Below are positions 1 through 64,000 of a stretch of DNA of 64,000 bases, in pieces (positions within the stretch are counted from its first letter, which is position 1; every line of letters begins with the position of its first letter). The position numbers and the translations under genes were made by a program. Where the stretch lies: positions 868,001 to 932,000 of the forward strand of contig WJXW01000018.1 in the NCBI GenBank assembly GCA_015832175.1. Reading direction: 5' to 3'. This stretch comes from Paraphaeosphaeria minitans. Its lineage: Eukaryota; Ascomycota; Dothideomycetes; Pleosporales; Didymosphaeriaceae. The notes under the pieces were generated by a model, which saw nothing but the letters and a program-made list of their open reading frames with translations, had not been told where the DNA came from and made no database searches.

Positions 1-670
1 CTCTTGAGTGTATCCTTGCTGTCTTTTCCATTCCAAACTGCCAGCGCCGAGTTCCCGGAGCCAAAGGCAGGGGCATGGAGGCCTTCGCGCGGAGCCGCAG
101 CAACACCATTGCCGTTGACACTCTGCGAGCCTGCATCGCTGGCCTGGCTGTTGGATTCGTTTGGCGACTCTTGTATACTTGGTGGTACCTGCGAACGCGT
201 GCTGTTGGCGGTATCGAGCCGGAACAATCGAGAATGCGACTGCTGGCGAGGCGCCACCACTGTGATGGACAGCTTCGTTCCTGCCGTCGGCGGGGAGACT
301 GTGGTCGCGAGTGGATTGGGGTTGTGTACGGGCGCCTCGGAAGGGTGTGGCGGCGGTGTGGCTAGGTGGAGGTTGTCCCGGAGGACATATGTGCCTGACG
401 GGATGGTAATGTGAGAAGGTGGACAGTTTCGAGGGCAGCTACGGGAAGCGTACCTTCGCCAACAACCAATTGGTGCTCAGGCCCGGTGGGATGGGTGAGG
501 GTGTTGTTCGTTTCGATAAGCTGTCCGCCACCCGGTGCGCCAGGATAGCCCGCGACAGGGTACCTTGGTGGAGGTGGGAGCACACTGTAGAGATGGCATC
601 AGTCAAGCTTCCCGGCGGCGGCGAGGTGGGCGCGTGATTGGGCAAAGCAGCATGGGAGAACTCACAACAT
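1..670 (-). CDS. creC: Catabolite repression protein CreC (5' part, runs off the left edge)
   Basis: WD40-repeat partner of the CreB deubiquitinase in carbon catabolite repression (family knowledge). Only the N-terminal region before the WD repeats is here, 176 codons plus 2 nt. Exons: 670-666 (ATGTT), 584-454 and 394-1; introns 585-665 (GTGAGT..CAG) and 395-453 (GTACGC..CAG). The splice gives [15 protein letters not shown] at the start, then [21 protein letters not shown] and [14 protein letters not shown], which match the conserved CreC N-terminus as I know it. A stop (TGA) sits in frame just upstream of exon 2, so the 5-nt first exon is needed to supply the Met. Divergent to gem1. The gene name rests on recalled family sequence; the WD repeats that would confirm it are outside the window. 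Confidence 0.85.
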
Positions 671-1338
671 AGCAACGCAGTCTGTGGCGGGGCCAGTCGG
701 AAGCAACGAGGACCGTTTCTAGCACGTGTTCCGGATCGCAGCCGACCGAAGGGTGCGACTGGGACAAGATGGGGGGTGGGGCGGCTATCTATGCAATGTA
801 TGTAAGGGCAATGGAACATGTGGGAGCTCGACAGCCCTCTGTGCCGTGCGAACCACCCCCCGGGATCGTGCAGCCGAATGGACGGGGAGAAGGTGCGGAG
901 CGCAAGCGCTAGTCGAGGGGCGTGGCTTGCCCATTCCCATTCATTCCCATTCACTCCTATTCCCATTCCCATTGCCATTCCCATACTCCATTCTCTATTG
1001 CCAGTGACCAGATGCGGGCGTCCGTCTTGGAAGCCGCCGTGCGGGACGAGTGCGTGTGCTTCGCGATGCATCCCGCAGAACCGTCCACGGAGATGGAGGA
1101 GAGGGTATCTATCCATTAGACTAGCCCACACCATTTGCGGGGACAGCCAGTGTCCACACGTGCGCTTCTTAGCGCAGGCGCAAGCGCAAGCGCCGCCAGC
1201 TCTTCGGGGGAGCTCACTCGCGGTAGATATCTATCTGCCTATCTAGTCTATTCATCCTACCTAGGTCGCGGCGCAACCAACGCTTCTGCTCGAACCACCA
1301 GCCTCCATTGAGCATGTTCTAAACCATGTGCACCCAGC
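671..1338. promoter_or_regulatory. Bidirectional intergenic region creC / gem1
   Basis: A 668-bp gap between the start codons of two divergent genes, so it must hold both promoters and 5' UTRs. It contains a CCCATT-type simple repeat (930-993), a short GCGCAA-type repeat near 1174-1194 and TATC/CTACCTA-rich sequence at about 1226-1262. Open frames crossing it on both strands are low-complexity readings of these repeats. I see no convincing TATA box. Confidence 0.5.
930..993. repeat. CCCATT-type imperfect hexamer microsatellite
   Basis: Roughly ten imperfect copies of CCCATT (variants CATTCA, CTCCTA, GCCATT) lie in the shared promoter of creC and gem1. The tract is strongly pyrimidine-skewed on the plus strand. 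Confidence 0.8.
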
Positions 1339-3326
1339 ATGGCCACCGGTGAGTGTCTTGACCCACGCGCATCCAAACGCCCAACTGACACCCCCCCTCA
1401 GTCCGAATCTGTGTTTGCGGCGATGAGGGCGTCGGCAAGAGCTCCATCATCACGTCGCTCGTCAAAGATGTCTTCGTCACGGCCAAGATACAGCCCGTCC
1501 TCCCCCAAGTCACCATCCCGCCCACGCTCGGCACGCCAGACAACGTCACAACCACCATCGTCGACACCTCGGCCCTGCCCCACGAACGCCATGCGCTCCG
1601 CAAAGAGCTCCGCAAATCCAACGTGATACTGCTGGTGTACTCGGACCACTACAGCTATGAGCGCGTCGCCCTGTTCTGGATGCCGTACTTCCGGTCGCTG
1701 GGCGTCAATGTGCCCGTGGTGCTCTGCGCGAACAAGGCCGACCTGGCGTCCAACGGGACAACGTCGCAGGTCGTCGCCGACGAGATGCTCCCCGTCATGA
1801 CCGAGTTCAAGGAGATCGACTCGTGCATCCGCACTAGCGCAAAAGACCACCACAACATCAACGAGGTCTTCTTCCTGTGCCAAAAGGCCGTTACCCACCC
1901 CATCGCACCGCTGTACGATTCAAAGGAAAATGCACTGAAATCCGCTGCGGTGGCCGCTTTGCAGCGTGTCTTCCACCTCTGCGACAAGGACAAGGATGGC
2001 TATTGGAACGATCAGGAGATTCACGATTTCCAGATCAAGTGTTTTGAGAAGCCATTGGGAGAGGATGACTTGGCCAACATCAAGCGGTCCATTGAACGAT
2101 CAGTCCCGGTATCTACTGGGGAGCATGGGATGGGCGAGAAGGGCTTCCTGTTGCTCAACAAGATGTTCGCTGAAAAGGGCCGCCACGAGACCATCTGGAT
2201 CATCCTCAGGAAATTCCACTACACCGACAGTCTTAGTCTTCAAGATTCATTTCTCCATCCCAAGTTCGATGTACCGCAGTACTCGTCCGCTGAGCTCAGT
2301 CCCGCCGGGTATCGTTTCTTCGTTGACCTCTTCCTGAAGTTCGACCGAGACAATGACGGAGGCCTGAACGATAAAGAGCTGGCCAATCTGTTCGCACCTA
2401 CACCCGGCGTTCCTGCGTCCTGGGTCGACTCGGCATTTCCGTCATGCACAGTACGCAACGAAGCAGGGTACATAACTTTGCAAGGATGGCTGGCGCAGTG
2501 GAGCATGACAACTTTCGAAGAGCCCAAGACGACGCTTGAATACCTCGCCTATCTTGGATTTGAGAGTGGCGATCGCGGCGGAACAACCAACGCGCTGAAA
2601 GTTACCAAGGCGCGCAAGAGGCGTAACAAGCCCGGGCGAGTGGAGCGCACCGTGTTCTTGTGCTACGTCTTGGGCTCCAGCGGCAGCGGCAAGAGCGCCC
2701 TGTTGTCGTCATTCCTGCAACGGCCCTTCACCAGCATGTACCACCCCACCATCAAACCGCGCTCGGCTGTGAACAGTGTGGAGCTGAAAGGCGGCAAACA
2801 GTGCTATCTCATCCTGGAAGAGCTTGGCGAGTTGGAGCCAGCCATTCTTGAGAACCAGGCCAAGCTCGATGCTTGCGATCTGCTCTGTTACACGTACGAC
2901 TCGAGCGACCCTGACAGTTTCACCCACATTGTCGAGCTACGGAAGAAGTACCCCCACCTCGACCATCTGCCGGCAGTCTACACCGCCCTCAAGGCCGACC
3001 AAGACAAGACGATGCAGCGATGCGAGCAGCAGCCCGATGAATACACAAGTGCGCTCAACATGGCTGCTCCACTGCATGTGAGTGCCACCTGGAGCAGCAT
3101 ATCGGAGCTCTTTGTTCACGTACGTACGACCTTAAGATGCAGGAGCCTCGTGTAGATTGCTGACCTTCTACAGCTGGCTGAATGTGCAACGCATCCCTCG
3201 ACGGCCTTCCCGAAGCAGGACGAGGAGCCGTACGACAACTTGAACTTGTACCTTGCGCTGGGCGCTGTGACTTGCGCAGTGGCATCTGCCGTCTTCATCT
3301 GGAAACGCAACGGGGCGTCTCCATAG
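1339..3326 (+). CDS. gem1: Mitochondrial Rho GTPase Gem1 (Miro)
   Basis: Outer-mitochondrial-membrane GTPase of mitochondrial distribution; in yeast it is linked to the ERMES tether (family knowledge). Exons 1339-1348, 1402-3119 and 3174-3326; introns 1349-1401 (GTGAGT..CAG) and 3120-3173 (GTACGT..CAG). The product is 626 residues, the usual Miro length. Visible in order: N-terminal GTPase with P-loop GDEGVGKSS (about 10-18) and the following [16 protein letters not shown] region; EF-hand loop [12 protein letters not shown] (about 197-208); second EF-hand loop [12 protein letters not shown] (about 317-328); C-terminal GTPase P-loop [10 protein letters not shown] (about 427-436); C-terminal tail anchor [19 protein letters not shown] (about 601-619) followed by a short basic tail. 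All expected domains are present and uninterrupted. Confidence 0.96.
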
Positions 3327-15342: not shown

Positions 15343-15758
15343 TATTAGGATCTAAAATCCACATAATGGCGGGAAGCCGGTTTTGTACCTAGTGGGCGCG
15401 TAGTAGGGATTAAGCGGGGATTTAATGCCAGCTACGCCTTAAATAAAGAAGTTACGTAACTACTCCCTATAGAGCGCTTAATTGCTCTATATAGAGCATA
15501 ACACACGTAACCGCTCCCTATAGAGCGCTTCCTATAGAGCGGCCTTTGCTTAGTATATAGGAACGTAAAGATAGGCTTTCTATACTTATATTTAATCTAT
15601 TTATTAATCTATTATTTAGATTCTAGTAGACTAAATTATTAACTTATTACACTTTACAAGATACTATTATATTAATAAGACCTTCTACCTTCTATAAGTA
15701 CTCCTACCTAAGAACTAACCTTAACCCTTTAGGACTAGCTACCCTTTTAGATTTAATA
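15343..15758 (+). repeat. 5' LTR of Gypsy G1
   Basis: 416 bp; begins TATTAGGATCT (TG mutated to TA) and ends GGATTTAACA-like as ATTTAATA. U3 carries several TATAGAGCGC palindromic motifs at about 15460-15541; R/U5 starts near TTAGTATATAGGAACG. Confidence 0.75.
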
Positions 15759-34288: not shown

Positions 34289-34293
34289 AAAGA

Positions 34294-35350
34294 TATTACT
34301 ATAGATTTTATTACAGGAATTCTAAACTCTAAGGATCTAACAACAGGAATTAAATACAATAGTATACTAGTAGTAGTCTGTTAACTAACTAAGTATATTA
34401 AGCTTATTCTATATCTTAAAAAAATAATAGTAAAGGAACTCGCTTTTCTTATCTTAGACTAACTAATTAGATACTACAGAATCCTAAAAATAATTATTAA
34501 TAATAGAGATAAGCTCTTCACGTTAAATTATTAGATAACGCTTATAGCCCTACTTAGAATGAAATAAAAGCTATTAACAGCTTACTATTTATAAATAGAC
34601 AGATAAATAGAACGTATAAACTAAACTATAGAAACGTACCTACGCATCTACTGTAACAGTTAGAAGAATAACTAGGTTTTATTACTACCTATAGCATAGT
34701 TAGCCTATAATAACAAAGTATTAGTAGTATTAGGATATATACTATTCTATATAAACTACAGAAGACACCTACATTTCTTTAATTAACAATTTCCTACAAT
34801 AATTAAAGCAAAAGAAGCCATAGATATAGTAGAAAATATAAAGAAAATACACTAATAACTCTAAGAAAATCTTAAAAAAGCTTAGCAGTAATTAATTTTA
34901 TACTAAAACTAAAAACAAAAAATAGCACCTTAGCTAAAGAAGGGGGATAAAGTATATTTACTTACAAAAAACCTTTAAACTTAGAAGAAAAAACACAAGA
35001 AACTAGATTATATTAAGGTTAGACTATTTTACATCTCTAAGCAAATATCACTAGTAAACTATAAGTTGGAATTACCGCTAGATGCGAAGATACACCTAGT
35101 ATTCTATATATTACTACTAGAACCAGTAGACCCAGAAATGCCAATTAAAACCACCTTCTATTACTAAGCTTAGGAAGAAACTAAATTTAAAGTAGAATAA
35201 ATCCTATAAGTATATAACGCGTACATAGACGCTAAAAAATACCTTATTAAGTAGAAAGGATATTCGTCTAGTAAAAATATATAAGAACCTAAAGAAAACC
35301 TATCTAACTATTAATAACAGATAAATAACTTCTATAACTAGACGCTAGAA
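34294..35350 (+). pseudogene. Gypsy G1 pol: integrase core and chromodomain
   Basis: Resumes after Q1. The integrase core and C-terminal region lead to a chromodomain-like end near 35170-35320 (FKVEQILQVYNAYID, then YLIKQKGYSSSKNIQEPKEN, with W positions now TAG). This places G1 among chromoviruses. Confidence 0.82.
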
Positions 35351-35399: not shown

Positions 35400-35937
35400 G
35401 GCCAGCCTATAAGATAGACTAGTTAATTACCTTAGCGCCTAATAGCGCGTTAGAGTTTATTAATATAGTAGCCTATACTAACTCCTCCTAGGCCTTAAGC
35501 GCTTTTAACTTATCTATAGTACTTATACCATAATTAAATAATTCTTATTCCTTCTAACGTAATTTCTTTTACTAATTATATAAGCGCGCTATCTTCTCTT
35601 ACGCCTAATAGGTATAAAAAAAAGCTGTCTTAGCTAGCTCTTTTTTAATATAGAGCTTTACCTCCTTTTTAGCTTCTAACTTTTCTAATCTCTCTATTTT
35701 AGCATTTACTTTTAAATAATCTAGTAAAGGGATTTCTTTAGACTTATACTTCTAGTTTCTCTATCTAACGCAGTTAGTATACTAAGAGTGTAAAGAAAAA
35801 AGATAATAAGTATATTTCTTCTTAGCGTAGTATAAATAGGTAACTATCGCAAAAATATAGTCTTTTTTAAAATAATTAGCTTAACTATAGCGATATTAAA
35901 TAGAATAAGATAATAACTTTATAGATAGTTAACTTAT
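35400..35937 (-). pseudogene. Antisense Zn2Cys6-like frame of Gypsy G1 (RIP-degraded)
   Basis: Opposite strand to pol, between the chromodomain and the 3' LTR. At 35838-35746 residues Y/Y/Y/Y/C/Y sit at positions 1, 4, 11, 20, 23 and 31, matching the Cys spacing of the G5 and G2 copies (last gap one longer). A charged helical stretch follows (AKIERLEKLEAKKEVKLYIK), coiled-coil-like. No ATG is left, so the start is approximate, and the end is uncertain. Tyr for Cys is what G-to-A RIP would produce from TGY codons. Confidence 0.5.
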
Positions 35938-35967
35938 AAGGACATTAAGCTTAGAGAGGGAGGATAA

Positions 35968-36423
35968 TATTAGAATCTAGCTATGTATAAGTAGTAGGGT
36001 ATAAGCTTATTAGACTACTAGTGTACTAGAGTTAGCTAACTAAGTAGTTAGATAATAAGTTATAGGTTCTAAGGGTCCTAAAGACTGTATAGGCCTTACC
36101 TATATAAGAACTCTAGGACGCGTAGGACTCGCCTACACAGGACTCTAGGACGTATAGGACTCTAGGACATATAGGACTCTAGGATATATAGGATTCTAGG
36201 ACGTATAGAATTACTTAGTATATAGGAACGCAATAATAAGCTTCTTATACTTATATTTAATCTATTTATTAATCTATTATTTAGATTCTAGTAGACTAAA
36301 TTATTAACTTGTTACACTTTATAAGATACTATTATATTAATAAAACCTTCTACTTTCTGTAAGTACTCCTACTTAAAAACTAACCTTAACCCTTTAGGAC
36401 TAACTACCCTCTTAAATTTAACA
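35968..36423 (+). repeat. 3' LTR of Gypsy G1
   Basis: 456 bp, preceded by purine tract AGAGAGGGAGGATAA; starts TATTAGAATCTAGC, ends AAATTTAACA. Its U3 is unrelated to that of the 5' LTR and contains a 17-bp minisatellite (36110-36208). Confidence 0.75.
36110..36208. repeat. 17-bp minisatellite in Gypsy U3
   Basis: About six imperfect tandem copies of CTAGGACGTATAGGACT. Confidence 0.8.
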
Positions 36424-37732
36424 TAAAAAGACTAGGAGTGTCTAGCCTCTTTGTACGATGTGGTTTATTGGGCAAAAGCAGTCTAGGTTTTAGGCTATTA
36501 CCACTAGTGTGGCTCTATATATAGTGTCTCTGTCCTCGCACGTATAAGGATGGGCCCTAGCTATACTCTATGTGTATATATATTACTTATAGATAGTGTA
36601 GGTTATATTATTAGGATCGTGTAAAGCGGTTTAGGTTATAGTTATAGCGTTATTATATAAAAGGTCTATAGCTTATAGTTAAGCTGTAACAGTTTAAAGA
36701 GTTTCTTTACATAAGTGTTCTTTATTATAGTATTAGTAGTAATAAAGCCTTTTTTTATAAAAAAAGCAATAAGCTCTCTTCTTACTATATAACTAATTTT
36801 ATTAAAGGTTTTCTCTTTCTACTTATTAAAATCTTTAGTAAAAGAAGAGATTACCTCTTTATTTTTAAAGCTACTTGCGCAATATTACGCAATTATATAC
36901 ACTATATAAGTGTTTAGCTATTTTAAAGAAGGGGGTAGGTAGCTATATAGATCTACTCTATCTACTTAGTACTTTTGTGCGATCTCTCCTCTTAAGGTAA
37001 TAGCCTTAATATTTATTACTTCCTCTACTTATTAAAGCTATTCTAAGTTGTCCTCTTACATAGCTTATTGTGCGATTCCTTCTTATACAGTTTCCTCTAG
37101 GAAGTCTCCTAGTCCTAGTGCTATGTTATTATCTTATTAAATCATATAACTAGACTATATTAGTGTGTCGCTAGTTTAATCGTGCAACGTGTTTTTTAGG
37201 GTTATAAATATGTTTACTATCTCCTTTCTTTTTTATAGAATAGCTTAGACTAGATTATGTAACTCTTTATAGATATATGCGCTTTATTTTTACTTATTAT
37301 ATAATCTAAAATTTAATCTCTAGTAAAGGTAATAATATAGAGCCTATGTATCTAGCTTATAGGGCGCTTTATCTTTAGACCTTACTAGTTTGTAGTTAAT
37401 TAGAATTAACTACTAATTAGTATTAGTTTAGCTTAAACTGTAATTAAGTATTTAAGGGTTAATAGTATACTATCGTGCAAAGGGTGAGAAGTAGGTTTAA
37501 TTAATTATGTCTAGTCTATTATATAAAGGGGCACTAAGGACCTTATAAAGTCTCTGCCTCTTAGCGCTAACCTAAGCAGTGGGTCCTTGTGCAGGTCCTT
37601 ATAGGTAGGTAGGGCCTTATAAAGTCTCTGCCTCTTAGCGCTAACCTAAGTAGTGGGTCCTTATGCAGGTCCCTATAGGTAGGTAGGCCCCTATTTTACT
37701 TAGTGCTATTTGTACGATAAACTGTATAGACA
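36424..37732 (-). mobile_element. Truncated inverted Copia P-family copy P3
   Basis: Reverse complement of the P 5' end: LTR (37421-37732), leader and the first part of gag, ending where it meets the Gypsy G1 LTR at 36423. Its LTR is 312 bp because a 74-bp block is tandemly duplicated (CCTTATAAAGTC repeated at 37541 and 37615). Confidence 0.85.
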
Positions 37733-46085: not shown

Positions 46086-49000
46086 CTAATTTTATATATA
46101 GACGTATTACAAAGAACTAATATGCGCACAATATATAGTAGAGAAAAAGGAGAATAAGAAATAATCTAGAAGGAAACTACGCTATAAATAGATGTATATA
46201 GACTACCCTATTACACCTTATAATAAACACCTTTAGGATAAATAATATATAAAATACTTCCCTTACCTCACGCTAAAGAGTAATAAATACTATAATATAC
46301 TTATTAATAGAGATTGTATATAACTAAACTAGTATATATATCTAAACTAAGACTGTAAATACCACTATATAGCTAAATATTTAGACGGCTTTGTAAACTG
46401 CCCTATATAAGAAGTAATAATAAAACTACTAATTTAACTAATATATAAGAATAGTAAAGACTATAGAAGGAAAAATAGTAGAATATTATTATAGAAAAAA
46501 GAAGATAATCTATAAAAGCTATATACTTAAGAATAATAATAAACATAGACGCTTAGAAATGTATACTAGGCACCTAAACTTAATTATAATCTATATAAAT
46601 AGATGTCTTTTTTAGGCCTAAACTTAGACAAGAAAACGCCTTTATTAAATTAAATGCTATAGTAAGCACAGTATTAGTTAAGGTACTAGTATGGCTTAAA
46701 GGAATATAGGCTTAAGCTTTTATAGACTTAGGAGTAGAAAGAAATTTTATATTTTATTAGATAGTAAGATAAGTAGGACTTATAATATTAGAGAAAAAAG
46801 TATCCTATATTATCTATATCGTAAATAGATCCCTAATGCCTAAAATACTTTAGATAAGCTAAGAGGTTACTACTATAATAATAGTCTAAGGATATAGAAA
46901 GGAATATACCTTAGATATATTACTAGGATCTACGTATAGCTTAGTCGTAAGATTACCTTAGTTAATAATATATAACCCGTAGATTAATTAAAATATAAAA
47001 AGAATATTATTTAAACGCTATAAATGTATATTATAAGTAAAGCCTACGTATTAACTAAAATTAATAGTAGATAAGAGAGTTATTAATAATATAATACTAT
47101 AATAGATAGTTAAAAAGTAGAAGCATACCTTAGTAGACGCTAGTAGAAACCACTAGGTTAAAAAGGGTAAGAAGGAGGATAATAGCACACCTTTTACCTT
47201 ACTAAGAGAGTACAGGAAATAGACATATATGTTTATAAAAAAGGAACGAAAAGTAAACCTACCTAAATATTAACCCTAGAATCTTACAATAGACCTAGAA
47301 GAAGGGAAGACGCTACCCTTTAGACTACTATATAGTAAAATAGAAGAAGAAATCCTTAAGAAACGTAATTTTATTAAGACAAACCTTAAGAAAGGATATA
47401 TATAACTATTAAAGTTACTAGTAGTAAGCCGTTTTATATTTGTTAAGCAAAAGGATAGATTAGATAGACTATACGTTAACTACTAATAACTTAATAATAT
47501 AATAATAAAGAACTAATATCTACTACTAAATATTATAGAGTTATAAGATTAGCTATTTTAAGCTAAGATATGTATAATAATATATCTAAGAGAGTGTTAC
47601 CACCTTATATAAATTAAGAAAGGTAAAGAATAGAAAATAGTGTTTTAATTACACTATAGAGTATTTAAATATAAGGTTATGCCTTTTAGACTTACAAATG
47701 CACTAGCAGCTTTTATAGCACTTATTAATAATATACTTTATAAATATCTAGACATATTTATTATCGCGTATATAGATAATATCCTTATCTTTTCTAAAAA
47801 CGAGTCTAACTACACTAAGTATGTATAGATAGTACTAAAAGCACTAGATAAAGCATACCTTTGTATTTTAACTTAAGAAATATAAGTTTAACATTAAATA
47901 ACTTAAATTCCTAGGACATATTATTACTACGGGAGGAATTAAAATAGCACTAAGTAAAAGTAAATATATTAAGAACTAACTAATACTAAAGACAGCCAGG
48001 AATATCTAAGAATTCTTAGGATTCTGTGGATTGAACTAATAATCTATCCAAGATTACGTAAAGGTTATAATACCTTTAATGAATCCTATAAAAAGGAACG
48101 TACCCTTTAAATAGATAAATAAGTATAGAATATTATTCTAACTCCTTAAGACAGTATATATTATGGAACGTATCCTTATTTATTTTAGAAGTAATAAACC
48201 ACTACGCTTTAAAACAGACGCTAGCGATCTTACGCTAGGCGCCTATATTAAATAAAAACGTAATAGTAAATAGCACCTAATTACCTATTACTTATATAAA
48301 TTTAGTAACGCTAAAATATAATACAACGTATATAATAAAGAACTCTATGCTATTGTTAAAGCCTTAAAGCACTAAAGGATTTACGCGCTTAGTTACTTAA
48401 CGCTAGAAATCTATATAGATTATAAGAACTTTCTAAGGTTTATAATAACAAAAAAACTTACGCTATAATAATAAAGATAGTTGTAGACTACTAGGTAGTA
48501 TAAGTTTAAAATTATATATATAGCTAGAAAAGAAAATGGCAGAGTAGACGCTCTTAGCTAATAAAGTAATTTAGTAGAATAAAAGGCAAAAACCTTCTCT
48601 GTAATCCTTCGCAAAGCCAAAGATAGATCTCTAGAACTAATAGCAGAACTAAATTAACTTTTAGTAATTAACTAAGAAGTTCTAGAACATCTATAAACTA
48701 AGATTATCTAACAATACTATAATAACCTTATGTACGGACACCTAGGTATTACAAAAACAATAGAACTTATCTAAAGGAATTACACCTTTAAAGGAATTAA
48801 GAAAGCTATAATAACTTACATCTATAAATGTGTAGAATACTAGCAAAGTAAACATAGTATATAGCTTAAATATAGAGAGATGTAAGCAATTAGAATAGTA
48901 ATAGCACTATAGGAAGACATTACTATAGATTTTATTATAGAAATTCTAAACTCTAAGGATCTAATAACAGGAATTAAATACAACAGTATACTAGTAGTAG

Positions 49001-49930
49001 TCTACTAACTAACTAAGTATATTAAGCTTATTCTATGTCTTAAAAAAATAATAGTAAAGGAACTCGCTTTTTTTATCCTAGACTAATTAATTAGATACTA
49101 TAGAATCCTAAAAATAATTATTAGTAATAGAGACAAGCTCTTCACGTTAAATTACTAGATAACGCTTATAGCCCTACTTAAAACGAAATAAAAGCTGTTA
49201 ACAGCTTACTATCCATAAATAGAAGGACAGATAAAACGTATAAACTAAACTATAGAAACGTACCTACGCATCTACTATAATAGTTAGAAGAATAACTAGG
49301 TTTTATTACTACCTATAGCACAGTTAGCCTATAATAACAAAGTATTAGCAGTATTAGGACATACACTATTCTATGTAAACTACAGAAGACACCTATATCT
49401 TTTTAATTAATAATTTCCTACGATAATTAAAGTAAAAGAAGGCATAGATCTAGTAGAAAATATTAAGAAAATACACTAATAACTTTAAGAGAATCTTAAG
49501 AAAGCTTAGTAGTAATTAATTTTATACTAGAACTAAAAATAAAAAATAGCACCTTAGCTAAAAAAGGGGGATAAAGTATATCTACTTACAAAGAACCTTT
49601 AAACTTAGAAGAAAAAACACAAAAAACTAGATTATATTAAGGTTAGACTATTTTATATTTCTAAGCAAATATTACTAGTAAACTATAAGTTAGAACTACC
49701 GCTAGATGTAAAAATATACCTAGTATTCTACCTATTACTACTAGAACTAGCAGACCCTAATACACTAGTTAGAACCGCCTTCTACTACAGAACTAAGGAA
49801 GAAAATAAATTTAAGGTTAAAAAAATTCTAGAATATAATTAGTATAGCAACGTGTACCTTATTAAGTAGAAAGGTTACCTACACAGCAAAAACACTTAGA
49901 AACTAAAGAAATACTTATAAAACTATTAAT
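46086..49930 (+). pseudogene. Gypsy G2 distal gag and pol with chromodomain, RIP-degraded
   Basis: The frame is interrupted by TAG/TAA. Recognisable: RT catalytic remnant, RNase H (DASDLTLGAYIK-type start near 48215), integrase zinc motif near 48720-48860, chromodomain segment YLIKQKGYLHSKNTQ near 49856. Confidence 0.82.
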
Positions 49931-49982
49931 AAAAGATTAAAGAATTCTACTAATAACCTATATAGCATAATAATATTTATAC

Positions 49983-50531
49983 CTAAAATAGTAAAGGCAC
50001 TAGATTATCCTAGAATTCTAATAGGAAATTCTTAAAAGCGCTCTATATTATAGGGGACAAGAAGAGACCTAAAGGAGTCTTATTAACTACTAGATTAACA
50101 GCTTTATAAGATTTAGTCTCTTTAATATTCTTCTCTTTAACTACTATTATATCTTTAGCACGCTTATCTAGTATGTCTATTTACTAATATAACTAATTTT
50201 CGTGCGCACGTGTAACCTATAATTTTTCTAATACCTTTTTATAGACCTTAAATGCAGCCTTCTACGTTTCTCTTAACTCTTTTATCTACACAAGCAATTT
50301 CTCTTTCTCTACTAATAAACGCTTAAACTTAGACTCTAAAACGCGTATATTATAATATTAACCTTAAGAAATATATTCCTTATATTTTCTAGACTAAACG
50401 TGAACCTTATAAACATAGTTATATTTTAGACATGTTAAGCATTTCTTAAGTATAACGTTGTTAAAGGAGTTAATAAAATTAGTTAAGTAATAGTAATAGG
50501 TAGTACTAGACTTAGAAGGTTATTTAGGCAT
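49983..50531 (-). pseudogene. Antisense Zn2Cys6-like plus coiled-coil frame of Gypsy G2 (RIP-degraded)
   Basis: ATG at 50531, 110 bp inside the 3' LTR, opposite to pol; about 183 codons to a stop at 49983. At 50441-50352 the Cys/Tyr residues fall at 1, 4, 11, 20, 23 and 30 (CLTCLKYNYVY, then KYKEYIS), i.e. CX2CX6CX8CX2CX6C. This is the Zn(II)2Cys6 pattern with four Cys changed to Tyr. A long charged helix follows (FKRLLVEKEKLLV, AAFKVYKKVLEKL). A short motif LLEFxDN near the end resembles PLEFxDN in the G5 copy. Stops are TAA/TAG only. Confidence 0.6.
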
Positions 50532-50640
50532 AATATAAGTAAGCTAACGCTACTTATAATATAGGGTAAGCTCTAGTTACAACTAGGAATAAGACATAGT
50601 TATATAATTTAAGGATAAATCTTAGTAAGGAGGGAGATAA

Positions 50641-51052
50641 TATTAAGATCTAAAGGCTAGGCCTTCTAGGATCTTTATATATATCTATATTTGTTATTTA
50701 AGTGGTATAGCACAAGAGGTCATGTAACCTAATTAGTGTAACTAGAGCGCTAAAACAACTAATTAAACTAAGCACTTAATATACTAAGCAACTAATTAGT
50801 GCTTAATTAGTTTAATTAGAGTAATTAGTCTACTAATTGCTTAAAGTATATAGGAACGCAAGGATAGGCTCTTTATACTTATGTTTAATCTATTTATTAA
50901 TCTATGGTTTAGATTCTAGTAGACTACATTATTAACTTGTTATACTTAGTTAAGATACTAATATATTAACAAGACTTTCTACCTTCTGTAAGTACTCCTG
51001 CCTAAGAACTAACCTTAACCCTTTAGAACTAGCTACCCTCTTAGATTTAATA
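50641..51052 (+). repeat. 3' LTR of Gypsy G2
   Basis: 412 bp, TATTAAGATCTAAAGG to GATTTAATA; U3 is the same type as in G4 (56349). Confidence 0.85.
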
Positions 51053-51065
51053 TAAGGTTATATCC

Positions 51066-53000
51066 TATTAGGATATAAGAATCTAAAAATGGCCTACTAC
51101 TAGTTTTGTACTTAGGAGGGCGCGTAGTAGGAATCTGATATAGGTTATACGCAAACTACGCCTAAATAAAAGAATTACGTAATTACTTCCTATAGGGTAG
51201 TAAGGTGCTCTCTAGAGAGCGCTTCTTATAGAGTAGAATTCCTTTAGTATTATAGTGTAAAGGTTGGCCTACAATAGAGAATCAGAGAAACATAGGGCCA
51301 ATTAGCTATTGTTTAAGATAGCTAATTAGAGAATAGACAAGAAATAGAATCCACCTAACTAGATAAGATAAGAAGGGACCTAATGGATAATTAGAGTAGT
51401 TGGATTTATATAATAAATTTTAGATAGCATAACTTAACCTATTCTTTTATATTCCTTACTTAAGGCAAAGACACTACACATAACTAATACTATAGTATAT
51501 AGAAACGTAAGTATAGACTCATTATACCTATATCTAATCTGTTTATTAATTTATTATTTAGATTACACTTAGGCTATATTATAAACTTCTTATACTTTAT
51601 AAGAGACTATTATATTAATAAAACTTCTCTATTATTATAAGTACTACTACCGAAGAACTAACTCTAACCCTTTAGGACTTACTACCCTCTTAGATTTAAT
51701 ATCTTAAACACCCTTAATATAAATACTATATAAACTTCTACTTTTTTAACCACTTTAGCTACTACTAATAGAATTACACTAGTTAGTAATATTTGTAACA
51801 AGATAGTAAAACCTAATTTATATAATCGTAACTATATTAAGACTAACACTTATCTTTTATAGGTTTACCTATACTTCCACTTCTCTAGAGGAAAATAGGA
51901 AGACAAGGATATAGTCTTACTTATAGCTACGTATATAAAAGGATAAGCTACTAATTAGATTAACCTATATACTATAACGTATCTTACGGAAAAGAATAGT
52001 AATAGTAACTAACTTAATAAAGTTATTAAAGAATATATCCCCTTCTACTTAGAATTTAAATAGTTCATTAGGGTTATAAATAAGGTACTAATTACTACTA
52101 AATAATCTAGGACTTTAAATAGACTATGTTAGTAGTTAAGTACGTAGTAGCTTGTTAACACTATGTAGTATAGCTTAAATAGGGTAATAACGCGCTAAAG
52201 ACAATATATAAGTAAGACCTTATTAGATTTATTAGAGGAGAACTCTTGCGTAGTAGAGGAATAATACCTACTTTAAAAAACCTATATAAAAATCCATTTA
52301 AATTAATATAGATTAGTATAATTTAAACTGGGAAATCTAACTCTACTTGTATATATAACTAATTTTTAGACCACTACACACTATAATTAATTACTACGCT
52401 ACCCTAAATACGCCACAAAAGAGAGATTTTTATATAGTCTAGCCTATAAAAGGAATCTAATAGAAGTTAACTAAGGATAACTAAAATATACGAATGTTTT
52501 ATAGATAGTGAACTAGACTATATTACTAGGAACTATAAAATAAAAAATAACGTCTATTAGACTGCGTAGTTAAATGTACTACACGTTAAAAGTGTAGAAG
52601 TAACTAATAAAAAAATAGAAAGTAGTAACTACTATAAAGAAGCTTAATATTAAGGACTAGGAATCTAACTAATTAGATTCGCCTAACTTACGACTATATA
52701 AAGACTAAGACAATACCTTAGACGAATACTTTAATATTGATAAAGAGTTGGACGTAGGAAAAATACTAAGATCTTTTATACCTTAAGTATAGGCTAGATA
52801 TAGCTAGGATAACCTAATAACACCTAATTATATACTAGAATCTAGATTGCAATAGAATAATCTAGATGTATAGTAATTTTAAGAACTACACTAACCTAAA
52901 AACAGAAACTTAATTTATAGAATAATAGTATAAATTAACTATAATTTATATAGTTATGTAAGCACTGCCTCTTATAGTCCTTATTAATATAAATAAGGCT
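51066..53000 (+). mobile_element. Truncated, diverged Ty3/Gypsy copy G3 (LTR and gag)
   Basis: LTR 51066-51701 (636 bp) begins TATTAGGATAT with a U3 like that of the G1 5' LTR, but carries about 230 extra bp at roughly 51250-51480. Gag-like sequence follows, with a zinc-knuckle remnant near 52500-52560, and fades around 53000. More diverged from the other copies than they are from each other. The right end is approximate. Confidence 0.65.
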
Positions 53001-53909: not shown

Positions 53910-55085
53910 ATGCCAAAAGAGAGCGACCAAATGCCCGACCAGAAACGAATTGGAATCATCGGACTCTCGGCTCAAGGGTGGGTACTCAATTGGCAAAAGT
54001 GGGAGCAAACCTAATCACTTCCCAGGTCATGGGCTTCAATCTCCCATCTGCCATATCTGCAACAAACAAATCTCTACAAGATCACGGCACTTCAGAACAG
54101 CACAGAAGCATCGGCCAAAGCCGCGGCGCAAAAGTATTCGTTGACCAACGTTACAACTTTCAACGACGCTTCTCAAATTGCCCACAGTTCTGATGTTGAC
54201 ATCATAGCCGTTAGTGTTAATGTTCCTGAGCACTACAAGCTTGCTAAGCCTGCTCTTGAGGCAGGCAAAGATGTTTTCGTTGAATGGCCGCTAGCTCGCA
54301 ACCTTGCTGAAGCTGAAGAACTTGTACGGCTGGCAAAAGAGATGGGTGTAAAGACAATGGTTGGCTTGCAGGCGCGCCAGAATCCGTCAGTACTAAAAGC
54401 AAAGGAAATTGTACAGTCGGGCAAGTTGGGAAAGATTTTGGTCACGACCATGTATGGCCATGGCGCGATTTTTGGTCCCACTGTAAATGAGGGTTTCTTG
54501 TATGCTTTGCCAGTTGAGGCTGGTGCAAACCTGCTCACTGTCCCTTTTGGCCATGCTGTTGATGCGCTATGTTTCGTTCTGGGCGAAATCGAAGACATCT
54601 CAGCCACGCTCGCAAACCTCACGCCGGAGCTTGATGTGATCAGCAAGGATGGGAAACTTGCAGGAAAAACGAGCAAGACAGCCCATGATCACATCAGCAT
54701 CACTGGTCAACTCTTAAATGGAGGTGGCATTGTGAATGTAACATATGCCGGGGGTGTCTCCAGGACCAAACGAGACTTTGTATGGGAGATTGTTGGTACT
54801 GAGGGCACGCTCATACTGGAGGGGCCAAGCAACGGCGGTCATGTGCAGATGTACCAGCCGACACTCAAGCTTGCGAAATCGGACCTACAAGAACTAGAAC
54901 AGATCAAAGTTGAAGAAACGACCGGCTTTTCGTACAACGTTGGCCGAGCTTGGGATGCCTGGGCCAACGTCGGGTTGAACAGGGGACATACGGTTACGAC
55001 ATTTGAAGATGCCTTGTTAAGGCACAAGATGATCGATGCCATTTACCGAAGCGCGAAAAATGGAACAAGAGAATGCTATGTATAG
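53910..55085 (+). CDS. Gfo/Idh/MocA-family (Gal80-like) NAD(P)-binding protein
   Basis: Family: Rossmann-fold oxidoreductases, with Gal80-type regulators in fungi. Exons 53910-53977 and 54026-55085; intron 53978-54025 (GTGGGT..CAG, CTAAT branch). The product is 375 residues. Splicing restores a typical N-terminus (IGIIGLSAQGSWASISHLPY, nucleotide-binding loop). Next comes HSSDVDIIAVSVNVPEHYKL, then VEWPLARNLAEAEEL (about 108-122) where most catalytic family members have EKP; Trp replaces the usual Lys at about 110, so it may not be a dehydrogenase. The C-terminal beta-sheet domain includes AHDHISITGQLLNGG and GTEGTLILEGPSNGG. No in-frame stop and no RIP bias, despite flanking degraded transposons. 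A second in-frame ATG at 53931 is possible. The substrate cannot be inferred. Confidence 0.88.
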
Positions 55086-56759: not shown

Positions 56760-59112
56760 TCTTAAACACCCTTAATATAAGTACTTTACAAACTCCTACC
56801 TCCTCTACAGCTTTAGGTGCCGCTAAGATTACTTCTATAAAGGATAGTAGTAAGGCGTATAAACCTAATCTCTACTTTAGTAAACAATCTTAAACTAACG
56901 TTTAGATTCTCTAGTTAGACCTCTACTTCTTTAACTTAGATAAATCCCTTAAAAATAAGAAAAAGGTTATCTTTATAGTAATATATATGCGAGGAGATAT
57001 AGGATTATAGATCTATCTTTACCTTAAAAAGTACCTAGGAATAGACTATAATAATAATAATAATAATAATAATTACGTAAATAAGCACGCTAATGCAGTT
57101 AATATTATTAAGGATTATAATAACTTTAAGAAATGCCTTAAATAACTCTTTAGGATCGCTAATAAGGACTCTATTACAAAAGTAAAAATTTAGACTATAA
57201 CTTAGAAATAATTAGTAGCTAAGTATATAATTAAGTTTTATAGATATACTATATAACTTAACTAGAACGATAAATCTCTTTAGGATATGTATAAATAAGG
57301 ACTTAAATAGAAACTACGTAAGGAACTCTTACGTAGTAGTGCACGAATTACTAATCTTAAGGAACTATATAAAGAAACTATTAGTATTAATAGAGAATAG
57401 TTTTTACTATAACAAGAACTCTACTAAAATCCTAGAGTAATAAGCTTTAGATAACTAGCAGAAGTAGTTTATAAGAACCTTATTAGAATTGTCTAAAAGT
57501 AATAACTAAGGAGCTACTAGAGATATAAACTAATAGAAAATATTTAGTTTAACTATATAGGTAAAGGAAAAGGAGGAAGGATAGGCCCTAAGTAGCCTAA
57601 TAAACGCGTCTCTAATAGAAGTTAATAACTAACGACTAAGACCTGTAAATAGTTCATATATAGTAAACTAGGCTATATAGCTAGGAACTATAGATTTAAG
57701 AATAAAGTCTATTAAACTAAGTTAAATATACTAACTATTAAGAAATAAGAACCTAATAAAGAATAGGAAGTTATAATAACGCTATTTAGTTACTAACGCG
57801 TTACACTAGAGCAAAGTAAGCGATTAGATTTACTTAACTTATAATTATATAAAGATCTAGAAGATAATTTAGATATATACTATAATGTAAAAGATGTAGA
57901 AGAGATACTAAAATCTCCTACTTCTTACCTATAAAGTAGGCAGGAAGAAGACAACCCTATGTTACCTAAGTATAAACTAAATGTATAGGACTATATAGAA
58001 CCCTACTAGGCACTAAAAGGAATGCAACCCTATAAAAATAAGGAGTTAGACTATGTACTAAAGTACTATCTAGACTACTACAATCCTACACACTAATTCT
58101 ATAAATAGATATATTGCGAAGAACTAATATGCGTATAATATAAAGTAGAGAAAGAGGAGAATAAGAAATAACTTAGAAGGAAACTACGCTATAAATAGAT
58201 ATAGATAGACTACTCTATTGCAGCTTATAATAAATACCTCTAGGATAAATAATAAGTGAAATACTTCCTTTACTTTACGCTAAAGGGTAATGAATACTAT
58301 AATATACTTAGTAATAGAGATTATATGTAACTATACTAGTACATATGTCTAAACTAAGACTGTGAATACTACTATATAGGTAAACATTTAGACGGCTTTG
58401 TAAACTGCCCTATATAAGAAGTAATAATAGAAATACTAATTTAACTAATTCTTAGGAATAGTAAAGACTGTAGGAGGAAAAACAGCAGAATATCTTTACA
58501 GAAAGAAGAAGATAATCTATATAAGCTATGTACTTAAGAATAACAATAGAAGTAAATGCTTAGAAATGTATACTAGGCACCTAAACTTAATTACAATTTA
58601 TATAAATAGATGTCTTCTTTAGGGCTAAAGTTAGATAAGAAAACGCCTTTATTAAATTAAATGCTATAGTAAGCATAGTATTAGTTAAGCTACTAGTATA
58701 GCTTAAAGGAATATAGGCTTAAGCTCTTATAGACTTAGGAGTAGAAAGAAACTTTATATCTTATTAAATAGTAAGATAAGTAGGACTTATAATATTAGAG
58801 AAAAAAGTACTCTATATTATCTATATTGTAAATAGATCCCTAATACCTAAGACACCTTAAATATACTAGGAGGTTACTACTACGATAATAGTCTAAGGAT
58901 ATAGAGAGGAACTTACCTTAGATATCTTACTAGGATCTAAGTATAAGTTAGTCTTAGAATTACCTTAGTTAATAATACACAACCTATAGATTAACTAGGG
59001 TATAAAGAAAATATTATTTAAACACTATAATTATGTATTATAAGTAAAGCCTATGTATTAACTAAAAATAATAGTAGATAAGGGAGTTATTAATAACATA
59101 ATACTACAATAG
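56760..59112 (+). pseudogene. Gypsy G4 gag and protease, RIP-degraded, truncated by G5
   Basis: Colinear with G1 15759-17298 plus 24393 to about 25200 without interruption, which proves those two G1 pieces were once joined. Many TAA/TAG codons. Confidence 0.8.
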
Positions 59113-59523
59113 TGTTAAATCCAAGAGGGTAGCTAGTCCTAAAGGGTTAAGGTTAGTTCTTAGGCAGGAGTACTTACAGAAGGTGAAAGGTCTTATTAAT
59201 ATAATAGTATCTTGCGAAGTGTAATAAGTTAATAATTTGGTCTACTAGAATCTAAATAATAGATTAATAAACAGATTAAATATAAGTATAGAGAGCCTAT
59301 CCTTGCGTTCCTATATACTAAGGCTACTCCGCTACTTAGTGCTACTAAGTAACTAAGCACTTTACGTAACCTACTCTACTACTTAGTGCCGCTAAGTAAC
59401 TAAGCATATTATATAACCTAATCTAAGTTACTTAGTGTCTCTTTATTACATTTATTACCCTGTTATTACTTTATTACACCTTTATAAGCGCCTAAGTCCT
59501 ATATTATTATCTAGTATGTAATA
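59113..59523 (-). repeat. 3' LTR of Gypsy G5 (inverted)
   Basis: 411 bp. Plus strand reads TGTTAAATCCAAGAGGG to GTATGTAATA. U3 has repeated GTTACTTAGTRCTACTAAGT-like inverted motifs at about 59320-59440. Confidence 0.88.
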
Positions 59524-59560
59524 TTATCCCCTCCCTTTTTATTCTTTATCCTAAAGAATT

Positions 59561-60079
59561 ATGCCTACTAACTGTAATTCTATAAAGCGTTATCACAGCC
59601 TTATTTCTACTATTAAAAACTATAAAGTAGTTATAGTGTTAAAGTGCTCCTTTTATAAGTTGCATTCCTATATTTATAAAGTCTATATTAGCTTAAAGAA
59701 GTGTAGTAAGTGTTAGAAATAAGGCTTAAAGTATAATATAGCTGTTACTAGAAACAAGTTCTTGTAGTTAATTACTAAGAAGAAGAAATTAGAGGCGTAA
59801 ATGTTAAAGGTGTAAAAAGAATAAAATACAGCGTTTAAAGCCCTACGCGTAGCGCGTGTAAAAAAAGATTAGTTATTAAAATAATTAGCGTAGAACAAAA
59901 AGTATACTAGTAAAGTTATTATAGTAGAGAGTGCTACGCTAATAGAGTTAGAGTTAGAGAAGGACCTAGCCTATCCTACTTAGCCTACTAGTCTAGCTAA
60001 ACTTAGCACGTCTATATAGTCTACAATAGACAACCTGCCTCTAGAGTTCTAGGACAATTCCTTAGTATTACTATCTTAG
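59561..60079 (+). pseudogene. Antisense Zn2Cys6-like plus coiled-coil frame of Gypsy G5 (RIP-degraded)
   Basis: Opposite strand to this element's pol; ATG at 59561 lies 38 bp inside the 3' LTR; 173 codons to TAG at 60077-60079. Cys/Tyr at 59645-59734 sit at 1, 4, 11, 20, 23 and 30 (CSFYKLHSYIY, KKCSKC, KYNI), the Zn(II)2Cys6 spacing; three of six are still Cys. The second half (KCSKC..xGxKxNI) closely resembles the Gal4-type 'CSxCxxRGxxC' half. Lys/Glu/Leu-rich helix (ITKKKKLEA, TAFKALRVARVKK) and an acidic/Ser/Pro tail with PLEFxDN follow. All internal stops are TAA/TAG. Confidence 0.65.
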
Positions 60080-60099
60080 GTAAGTCTATTAATAGAATT

Positions 60100-63000
60100 C
60101 TTTAATCTTTTATTAACAGTTTCCTAAGTAGTTCTTTAGTTCCTAAGTGTTTTTACTGTATAGGTAATCTTTCCACTTAATAAGGTACGTGTTATTATAC
60201 TAATTATATTCTAGAATTCTTGTAACCTTAAATTTGTTTTCTTTCTTAGTCTAGTAGTAAAAGATGGTTTTAACTAGTGTATTAGGGTCTGCTAGTTTTA
60301 GTAGTAATATATAGAATACTAGGTGTATCTTTACATCTAGCGGTAGTTCTAACTTATAATTCACTAGTAATATTTGCTTAAAAATGTAAAATAGTCTAAC
60401 CTTAATATAATCTAGTTTCTTATGTTTCTTTTTCTAAGTTTAAAGGTTCTTTGTAAGCAAATATGCTTTATCCCCTTTCTTTAGCTAAGGTGCTATTTTT
60501 TGTTTTTAGTTTTAGTATAAAATTAATTACTGCTAAGCTTTCTTAAGATTCTTTTAGAGTTATTAGTATATTTTCTTTATATTTTCTACTATATCTATAG
60601 GTTCTTTTGCTTTAATTATTGTAGGGAATTATTAATTAAAGAGATGTGGGTGTCTTCTATAGTTTACATAGAATAGTGTATGTCCTAATGCTGCTAATAC
60701 TTTGTTATTATAGGCTAACTATGCTATAGGTAGTAATAAAATCTAGTTATTCTTTTAACTGTTGTAGTAGATGCGTAGGTATATTTCTATAGTTTAGTTT
60801 GTACGTTCTATCTGTCTGTCTGTTTATAGATAGTAAGCTGTTAATAGCTTTTATTTTGTTCTAAGTAGGGCTATAAGCGTTATCTAATAATTTAACGTAA
60901 AGAGCTTATCTCTATCACTAATAATTATTTTTGGGATTCTGTGATGTCTAATTAGTTAGTCTAGGATAAGAAAAGCGAGTTCCTTTGCTGTTATTCTTTT
61001 AAGACATAAAATAAGCTTAATATACTTAGTTAGTTGGCAGAGTACTACTAGTATACTGTCGTATTTAATTCTTATTATTAGATTCTTAGAGTTTAGAATT
61101 CCTGTGATAAAATCTATAGTAATATCTTCCTATAATACTATTAGTATTCTAATTACTTGCATCTCTCTATATTTAAAATATATACTATGTTTGTTTCTCT
61201 AGCATTCTGTATATTTATAGATGTAAGTTATTATAGCTTCCTTAATTCCTTTAAAGGTGTAATTCCTTTAGATAAGTTCTATTGTCTTTGTAATGCCTAG
61301 GTGTCCGTACATAGGATCATTGTGGTATTGTTAGATAATCTTAGTCTATAGATGTTCTAGAACTTCTTAGTTAACTACTAAAAGTTAATTTAGTTCTGCT
61401 GTTAGTTTTAGAGATCTATTTTTAGCTTTACAAAGGATTGTAGAGAAGGTTTTTACCTTTTCTCCTACTAGATTACTTTGTTAGCTAAGAGCGTCTACTC
61501 TGCTATTTTTTTTTCTAGCTATATAGATAATTTTAAACTTGTACTACCTAGTAGTCTGCAACTATCTTTGTTATTATAGCGTAAGTTCTTTTATTGTTGT
61601 AAACCTTAGAAGGTTCTTATAATCTGTGTAGATTTCTAGCGTTAAGTAGCTAAGCGCGTAAATCCTCTAGTGCTTTAAGGCTTTAATAATAGCGTAGAGT
61701 TCTTTATTATATATATTGTATCGTGTTTCAGCGTTATTAAATTTATATAAGTAATAGGCAATTAGGTGCTATTTGCTATTACGTTCTTATTTAGCGTAAA
61801 CGCCTAGCGTAAGATGGCTAGCGTCTGTTTTAAAGCGCAGTAGTTTATCGCTTCTAAAATAAACAAGGATAGGTTCTATAATATATACTATGTTAAGGAG
61901 TTAGAATAACATTCTACACTTATTTATTTATTTAAAGGGTACGTCCTTTTTTATAAAATTTTTTAAGGGTATTCTGACCTTTGCGTAATCTTAGATAAAT
62001 TGTTAGTTAAATCTATAAAATTCTAAGAATTCTTAGATATTCTTGGCTATCTTTAGTATTAGCTAGTTCTTAATATATTTAATTTTACTTAGTGCTATCT
62101 TAATTCCTTCTATAGTAATAATATGTCCTAGAAATTTAAGTTATTTAACATTAAACTTACATTTCTTAAGTTTAATATAAAGGCATGCTTTATCTAGTGC
62201 TTCTAGTACTATCTATATATGCTTAGTGTAGTCTAATTCGCTTTTAGAAAAGACAAGGATATCGTCTATATACGCGATAACAAATATGTCCAGATATTTA
62301 TAGAGTATGTTATTAATAAGTGCTATAAAAGCTACTAGTACATTTATAAGTCTAAAAGGCATAACCTTATATTTAAATAGTCTATAGCGTGATTAAAACG
62401 CTATTTTCTATTCTTCACCTTTCTTAATTCGTATAAAGTGGTAACTATCTCTTAGATCTATTATTATAAATATCTTGGCTTAAGATAATTAATCTCGTAA
62501 CTCTATAATGTTTAGTAGTAGATATTAGTTCTTTATTATTATGTTATTAAGTTGTTAGTAGTTAACGTATAGTCTATCTAATCTATCCTTTTTCTTAACA
62601 AATATAAAAGGGCTTACTGCTAGTAACTTTAATAGTTATATATATCCTTTCTTAAGGTTTATCTTAATAAAATTACATTCTTTAAGGAGTTCTTCTTCTA
62701 TCTTACTATATAGTGGTTTAAAGGGTAGCGTCTTCCCTTTTTCTAGGTCTATTATAAGATCCTAGGGTTAATATTCTAGTAGGTTTACTTTTCCTTCTTT
62801 TTCTGTAAATATATATGTCTATTTCCTATACTCTCTTAGTAAAGTAAGAGGTATGCTATTGTCCTTCTTCTTACGCTTTTTAACCTAGTAGTTCCTACTA
62901 GCGTCTACTAAGGTGTACTTCTATTTTTTAACTGTCTATCGCGGTATCATGTTATTTATAACTCTTATTTACTATTATTTTTAGTTAATGCGTAGGCTTT

Positions 63001-64000
63001 ACTTATAATACATAATTACAGCGTTTAAATAATATTTTCTTTATACCCTAGTTAATCTATAGGTTATATATTGTTAACTAAAGTAATCCTAAGACTAATT
63101 TATACTTAGATCCTAGTAAGATATCTAAAGTAAGTTCCTCTCTATATCCTTAGACTGTTATTATAGTAGTAACCTCCTAGTATATTTAAGGTGTCTTAGG
63201 CATTAGAGATCTATTCGCAATATAGACAATATAGGGTACTTCTTTCTCTAATATTATAAGTCCTGCTTATCTTACTATCTAATAAGATATAAAGTTCCTT
63301 CCTACTTCTAAGTCTATAAGAGCTTAAGTCTATATTCCTTTAAGCTATACTAGTAGCTTAATTAATACTATACTTACTATAATATTTAATTTAATAAAGG
63401 CGTTTTCTTATTTAAGTCTAGGCCTAAAAAAGACATCTATTTATATAAGTTGTAGTTAAGTTTAGGTGCCTAGTATGCGTTTCTAAGTATCTACTTTTAT
63501 TATTATTCTTAAGTACGTAGCTTATATAGATTATCTTCTTCTTCTTCCTATAAGGATGTTCTTCTGTTTTTCCTCCTATAGTTTTCACTATTCCTATGTA
63601 CTAGTTAAATTAGTAGTTCTATTATTACTTCTTATATAGGGCAGTTTATAAAGCCTTCTAAATGTTTAGCTATATAGTAGTATTTATAGTCTTAGTTTAG
63701 ACACGTATACCAGTATAGTTATATATAGTCTCTATTAATAAGTATATTATAGCATTTATTACCTTTTAGCGTAAGGTAAGGAAAGTATTTTACTTATTAT
63801 TTATCCTAGAGGTATTCGTCGCAAGCTGTAATAGAGTAGTCTATCTATATCTATCTATAGCATAGTTTCTTTCTAAGTTATTTTTTATTCTCTTTTTTCT
63901 CTACTTTATATTATGCGTATGTTAGTTCTTCGTAATGCGTCTACATACAAAATTAGTGTATAGGATTTTAGTAGTCTAAGTAGTACTTTAGTACGTAGTC
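60100..64000 (-). pseudogene. Gypsy G5 pol and distal gag, RIP-degraded
   Basis: Inverted and colinear with G1 and G2 pol: chromodomain, integrase, RNase H, RT and protease from left to right. The YIDDI catalytic box near 62270 is still encoded, so this copy seems somewhat less mutated there than G1 and G2 (YIDNI). TAG/TAA codons throughout; not functional. Confidence 0.83.

Follow-up and report, generated by a model that had tools for sequence, protein, structure and literature searches.

The window, a stretch of 64,000 nucleotides (nt) of the Paraphaeosphaeria minitans genome (contig WJXW01000018.1, positions 868,001 to 932,000), contains copies of three families of Ty3/Gypsy retrotransposons, G5, G2 and G1, each of which carries a gene that runs antisense to pol. 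As in the original prediction, which was made without database searches, this gene is found between the chromodomain and the 3' long terminal repeat (LTR), at 59561-60079 (+) in G5, 49983-50531 (-) in G2 and 35400-35940 (-, borders approximate) in G1. All three are degraded by repeat-induced point mutation (RIP); the G5 frame, of 172 codons plus stop, has an ATG start, a TAG end and 12 internal stops. The pol of G5 lies on the minus strand from ~60087 upwards (60087-63280, and extending further) and is itself degraded, with Pfam matches to reverse transcriptase (RVT_1), RNase H, integrase H2C2, Tf2-1 SH3 and chromo, the last two each below their own cut-off; it matches the open pol of another locus, L101. 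Sequence comparison places the pol of G2 (46759-50018, +) and the 3' part of the pol of G1 (34290-35325, +) in the same lineage.

When the LTRs of the three families are aligned, U3 is unalignable up to the TATA box and the sequence from there to the LTR end is common to all. In the 3' LTR of G5 the U3, which is of the type found with the open gene P0001 described below and has short repeats beside the TATA box, is at 59320-59526 (-, borders read by eye), followed by the TATA box, R and U5 at 59113-59319 (-). The corresponding regions are 50638-50843 (borders approximate) and 50844-51055 in G2 and, with the spacer included before U3, 35941-36215 and 36217-36426 in G1, all on the plus strand. 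The distance from the ATG of the antisense gene to the LTR start is 34 nt in G5 and L101 and ~106 nt in G2.

The genome that was searched (47.45 Mb in 30 contigs) provided 40 scored copies per family from 192, 167 and 182 candidates, nearly all with a RIP-degraded antisense gene. In each family, over 40 G5, 30 G2 and 30 G1 copies, stops are rarer in the antisense frame than in any of the other five, at 11.3 per copy against 13.1-25.1 for the other frames in G5, 12.8 against 18.0-26.2 in G2 and 15.6 against 19.0-23.5 in G1. Of the six cysteines predicted for this frame the window copies keep three in G5, two in G2 and one in G1. Across copies, Cys is present at the six positions in 39, 2, 1, 37, 29 and 27 of 40 for G5, 11, 16, 0, 2, 9 and 6 of 30 for G2, and 2, 4, 0, 20, 10 and 23 of 30 for G1. 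The claim that every lost Cys has become Tyr holds for nearly all states, the exceptions being one Ser in G5 and one stop in G2. The predicted spacing is found in the open relatives, namely P0001, the open G1-type gene in locus L102 and 118 of 122 homologues, but these are the sole support for the third Cys, which is nearly absent from degraded copies (1/40 G5, 0/30 G2, 0/30 G1). An x4/x10 spacing, suggested by Cys columns 37 in G5 and 39 in G2, was dropped as the open relatives have x6/x8.

RIP had been proposed as the cause of this decay, and CpA and CpG changes do dominate: from L101 to the G5 pol, changes are found at 306 of 415 CpA and 202 of 322 CpG sites, with 30 of 354 at CpT and 20 of 288 at CpC. 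All 12 internal stops of G5 align with Gln, Trp or Arg codons of L101, and as RIP-type transitions can make stops from such codons these stops are explicable by RIP. The GC content is 0.42-0.58 in L101 compared with 0.27-0.29 in window 59001-64000. RIP-type changes in window 60290-63282 relative to L101 are found at CpG (63%) nearly as often as at CpA (74%), those at CpT and CpC being rare.

Open copies, relatives and selection

A profile built from 12 degraded copies, with X at stops, was used for the first protein search and matched P0001 and P0002. P0001 is an annotated P. minitans protein of 170 amino acids (aa) whose UniRef label begins 'Zn(2)-C6 fungal-type doma', and its gene is present in the same genome (C15:1230229-1230738, 100% identity), this being the only stop-free one among 150 scored matches from 338 candidates. 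At this site, the open locus L101, pol (2-3229, +) and the antisense gene (3738-3226, -) are both open and lie tail-to-tail, with an overlap of 4 nt at the stop codons only. An open G1-type gene, the counterpart of the degraded G1 gene in the window, lies beside an open chromodomain end at C19 (L102) and is the only one among 150 scored matches from 182 candidates. The host genome itself thus retains one open gene each of the P0001 and the G1 type. The G5 antisense product is 54% identical to open P0001, and the G2 and G5 genes are 35% identical in their present degraded form. A ~1.1 kb insertion (L101:3827-4962) interrupts the spacer/U3 of this open locus at a distance of 88 nt from the ATG of the gene, with ~10 nt matching on both sides as a possible target duplication, and a DDE_1 transposase frame (E 3e-31) is found nearby at L101:6428-7441.

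With P0001 as query 22 proteins were found, and a profile from their alignment matched 280, of which 120 were listed; 122 proteins were fetched (P0001 and P0003-P0123). Two organisms are named among the listed matches, P. minitans (Pleosporales) and Hortaea werneckii, and each belongs to the Dothideomycetes. Many metagenomic homologues come from contigs 6-7 kb long, a length no more than suggestive of a pol beside the gene; P0020, P0021, P0025, P0033 and P0049 are among the proteins with such contigs. In a search of five sequences with the profile of 120 relatives, matches were obtained to G2 (E 2e-45), G5 (4e-31) and the open protein of G1 type (3e-13); for the degraded copy of G1 there was no match (E 0.39). 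No relative was found in IMG/VR contigs.

Zn2Cys6 clusters (PF00172) have the spacing CX2CX6CX5-12CX2CX6-8C, and the antisense family conforms to this. The spacing CX2CX6-7CX8CX2CX6C is present in the 118 homologues, those without it being P0014, P0023, P0097 and P0113; the first half of the motif has X6 in 117 of the 118 and X7 in one, and the open G1-type protein has X7 in the last loop. A long helix is predicted at high confidence for residues 64-132, in keeping with the helix first noticed behind the Cys array, and in Gal4, PPR1, PUT3 and HAP1, too, the cluster usually precedes a helix for dimer formation. With Foldseek, all 15 hits of a first structural model at E<=10 and both hits of a deeper model (both Pho7) are Zn2Cys6 proteins, which we take to be DNA-binding domains. 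This identity is not fully borne out: the structural matches are weak and became fewer with the deeper model, and the best score of the family with Pfam Zn_clus (PF00172) is 14.6 bits, below the gathering score of 21. At E<=1 Zn_clus matched 11 of the 120 members, 0.06 being the lowest E, and it did not match P0001 at E<=10; PDB profiles, NCBIfam and, for the degraded copies, Pfam yielded no usable match. The Gal4-like identity originally proposed is partly supported, by spacing and helix, with structural hits that are weak but of one kind and a profile score that falls short.

From sequence and models, the antisense product would appear to be a protein of ~170-210 aa in which a Zn2Cys6-type cluster at the N-terminus is followed by ~70 residues of helix, probably paired in a coiled coil, and then by a tail that varies. 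Its likeness to Gal4-type regulators lies in the six-Cys spacing, the order of cluster and helix, and the exclusively Zn2Cys6 chains among its Foldseek hits, whereas it differs from them in being small, borne on a retrotransposon and below the Pfam cut-off. Some of the hypothetical proteins labelled 'Zn(2)-C6 fungal-type' in fungal gene sets are transposon genes.

Selection on the antisense gene and pol was analysed by counting transversions, because RIP makes transitions only. Between the antisense genes of L101 and G5 transversions number 5, 1 and 21 at codon positions 1, 2 and 3, and the ratio of nonsynonymous to synonymous transversions is 0.07 (0.07-0.09 for L101 against 39 further G5 copies, which share history), with values of 2.09, undefined, 1.5, 0.35 and 6.9 in the other five frames; such an excess at third positions implies that the protein frame is selected. 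The one indel between these genes is of 6 nt, and those relative to G2 are of 6, 21, 6, 6 and 3 nt, all multiples of three. Against the more distant G2 the ratio is 0.73 (0.55-0.73 over 29 copies) with 0.84-1.36 in other frames, close to saturation, and both the 2 transversions between L102 and G1 and the 13 behind a pol ratio of 1.07 are uninformative. The antisense frame is a conserved gene that codes for a protein and is selected as such. The three points on which the original prediction could have fallen have thus gone in its favour: the six Cys are kept in open relatives, purifying selection is seen and the frame is not a shadow of the sense strand.

Exchange of gene and U3 beside a common pol

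Over positions 1-3000 L101 and G5 differ by 7 transversions and otherwise by changes that are nearly all of RIP type. Beyond 3000 there are 5, 10, 7, 7 and 7 transversions per 150 nt through the end of pol and the gene, and past the gene the 140 nt of U3 hold 8, the following 150 nt 1 and the final 95 nt 5. Between G2 and the others the counts are 0-3 per 150 nt in pol and 20-51 in the antisense gene. A degraded locus, L103, has the P0001 type of gene, with 0 transversions to L101 and 27 to G5.

Rates between families were obtained from 24 loci, 8 without a TATA motif having been dropped from the 32 given (8 G5, 12 of 30 G2 and 12 of 30 G1). Transversions per site between families are 0.0041 (G2-G5) and 0.022-0.024 (G1 with the others) in the pol body, 0.035-0.093 in the pol tail, 0.246-0.327 in the antisense gene, 0.23-0.30 in spacer plus U3, and 0.022-0.031 in TATA-R-U5. 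Within families the same regions give 0.004-0.040, 0.002-0.056, 0.001-0.006, 0.004-0.009 and 0.022-0.027. For pol segment 500-1000, 65 of 69 loci fall in one cluster at 0.02 regardless of gene type (30/30 G1, 26/30 G2, 8/8 G5 and L101), the other four being single G2 loci. For segment 900-1330 the main cluster holds 29/30 G2, all G5, L101 and 15/30 G1, and 13 G1 loci form another; since the 3' ends of the G1 pol fall in two clusters, the G1 block is found beside two variants of pol.

In 67 of 68 loci the type of the gene matches that of U3. Only L031 departs from this: next to its G2 gene, U3 starts as G2-like and then turns G5-like, its LTR being likely a recombinant. In L021 a G1-type stretch of U3 directly follows the G2 U3. 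By sequence comparison, the pol genes of G5, G2 and G1 form a single lineage and their R-U5 is common, and beside these the antisense gene and U3 have been exchanged as one unit, a feature that the original prediction overlooked. A gene and its neighbouring control region are thus jointly exchanged beside common genes, as for a block of regulator plus operator.

Short repeats are found in U3 beside the TATA box and differ between the types: L101 has CTGAGC and TCACGTGATG, the latter doubled, the open G1 type has GTCCCA, and degraded G2 has AATTAG. For 6-mers the repeat score was reached by none of 500 shuffles in any of the five U3s, and the 5-mer score by 4 of 500 in the G1 U3 and none in the others. 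The L101 U3 has a repeat score of 46, above all 60 windows of L101 pol (maximum 16), and the C19 U3 one of 81, as against 8-14 in the C19 gene and 9 in R-U5. These block-specific repeats are candidate binding sites, repeats in themselves being no proof of binding. Two other LTRs of the window (15552-15756 and 51494-51699) have the common R-U5 and upstream sequence unlike any of the five U3s compared, and given these it may be that further blocks exist.

A possible regulator-plus-promoter block

In the immunity regions of lambdoid phages a regulator and its control region are exchanged as a block beside common genes. The likeness to the present case is in the block exchange; the difference is that this is a retroelement, for which binding to the control region is inferred. 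By this analogy we suggest, with a probability of roughly one half, that the chromodomain Ty3/Gypsy lineage carries an exchangeable block of regulator plus promoter. The antisense gene would be transcribed from the U3 of the 3' LTR, the promoter probably being in the LTR because there is little room between it and the ATG, and its dimeric product would bind the family-specific repeats of its own U3 beside the sense TATA box. Reverse transcription gives both LTRs the U3 of the 3' LTR, so the protein could control both its own gene and the genomic transcript that starts in the 5' LTR. It would most likely be a repressor of the copy-number or immunity type, self-repression being favoured because the self-control of Ty1 differs between subfamilies that have recombined, with gag exchange between Ty1 and Ty1' (available parts of PMC7055915). 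The likeness is in a self-encoded, subfamily-specific control altered by recombination; the Ty1 factor differs in being derived from gag and acting on particles rather than on a promoter (PMC7055915). An element could acquire a new block of gene plus U3 through, for instance, a single template switch close to the pol end, and would then no longer be repressed by the resident copies. Such heteroimmunity, with one pol lineage and several exchangeable blocks that each combine a Zn2Cys6 repressor, encoded in antisense, with the U3 that it recognises, is a more specific proposal and is put forward tentatively.

It would seem rather unlikely that the gene is real and Zn2Cys6-like and its joint exchange with U3 merely mechanical, the protein acting elsewhere, for example in host silencing, chromatin or integration. 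A single template switch or conversion breakpoint near the end of pol would carry everything 3' of it, and in crapaud of Podospora, subfamilies with the same R-U5 and internal region differ in the U3 that precedes the TATA box; in the available text of that account 'antisense' occurs 0 times and the authors leave the cause of U3 diversification open (PMC10787394). The linkage of gene and U3 in 67 of 68 loci, even though the pol beside G1 blocks has two 3' variants, and the U3 repeats that differ by block fit a functional link without proving it. More doubtful still is that the six Cys form a zinc fold without DNA binding and that the long helix lets the protein serve as a scaffold or pair up with Gag, RNA or some host protein; the sub-threshold Zn_clus scores, an atypical first half of the motif and the very long helix would agree with this, whereas the presumed DNA-binding function of all Foldseek hits and the order of cluster and helix that is usual in Gal4 and its like speak for the regulator.

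Antisense LTR transcripts are able to act as RNA (available parts of PMC7264820), and the active agent could on that basis be the antisense RNA, through double-stranded RNA silencing, rather than a protein; this is very improbable given the third-position excess, the indels in threes and the frame and Cys kept intact in 118 of 122 relatives. The idea that RIP debris or the sense strand gives rise to this frame by chance or as a shadow is refuted, even with every window copy rich in stops. A chance frame was rejected as the antisense frame has the fewest stops of six and has open copies and relatives found by profile, and a sense-strand shadow as the overlap with pol is confined to stop codons and selection is specific to the antisense frame.

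Antisense genes at this place in LTR retrotransposons are already known from plants and Botrytis, contrary to the original view that no such gene had been described. A gene termed brtn is said to have been described by Zhao et al. in 2011 (Virology 417:248). It is the antisense gene of the Boty-like (BcGypsy1) Ty3/Gypsy elements of Botrytis cinerea (PMC7264820, PMC8365987, PMC4227169, PMC5987419) and, like the present gene, lies between pol and the 3' LTR of a fungal Gypsy element; compared by description only, it differs in that the available passages on it mention neither Zn2Cys6 nor U3 exchange. Antisense open reading frames between pol and the 3' LTR are also found in the plant elements Retand (TRP28), Grande (gene23) and RIRE2, TRP28 being predicted to bind DNA and a regulatory role having been suggested (parts of PMC11963269 and PMC7264820). 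These are of another protein family (TRP28, PF04195), and the same passages report neither Zn2Cys6 nor a block exchange of gene and U3. The TRP28 domain is absent from the Pfam matches of P0001 (E<=10) and of the open G1-type protein (E<=0.1). HBZ of human T-lymphotropic virus 1 (HTLV-1) is an antisense nuclear protein of the basic leucine zipper (bZIP) family in a vertebrate host. It is mentioned in the available part of PMC11963269 and shares with the present protein its origin as an antisense product of a retroelement; family and host differ and no relation in sequence is claimed.

U3 diversity on a common R-U5 is likewise known, from crapaud. Among the papers listed in searches of open-licence literature, none dealt with an antisense gene of Zn2Cys6 type in an LTR element or with the exchange of such a gene and U3; measured against those listings, it is new that the antisense protein is of the Zn2Cys6 kind, that it is widely conserved and that it is exchanged with U3 as one block. 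Antisense genes of LTR retrotransposons have been noted before without known function, and a conserved protein that is similar to a DNA-binding domain widespread in fungi and moves with U3 links them to the puzzle of U3 diversity. The prediction is that each antisense protein recognises its own U3; should this hold, there would be a counterpart of sorts to the phage immunity region in a eukaryotic retroelement, and heteroimmunity could explain the U3 diversity of elements such as crapaud.

Two further observations concern the surroundings of these elements. Three copies of equal score at positions 96348, 101810 and 133250 of contig G000:C2 perhaps reflect a recent segmental duplication. Within the AT-rich part of the window an island with a GC content of 0.50 (54141-55085) contains a Gal80-like frame of the GFO-IDH-MocA oxidoreductases (Gal80p_C-like, E 1e-49).
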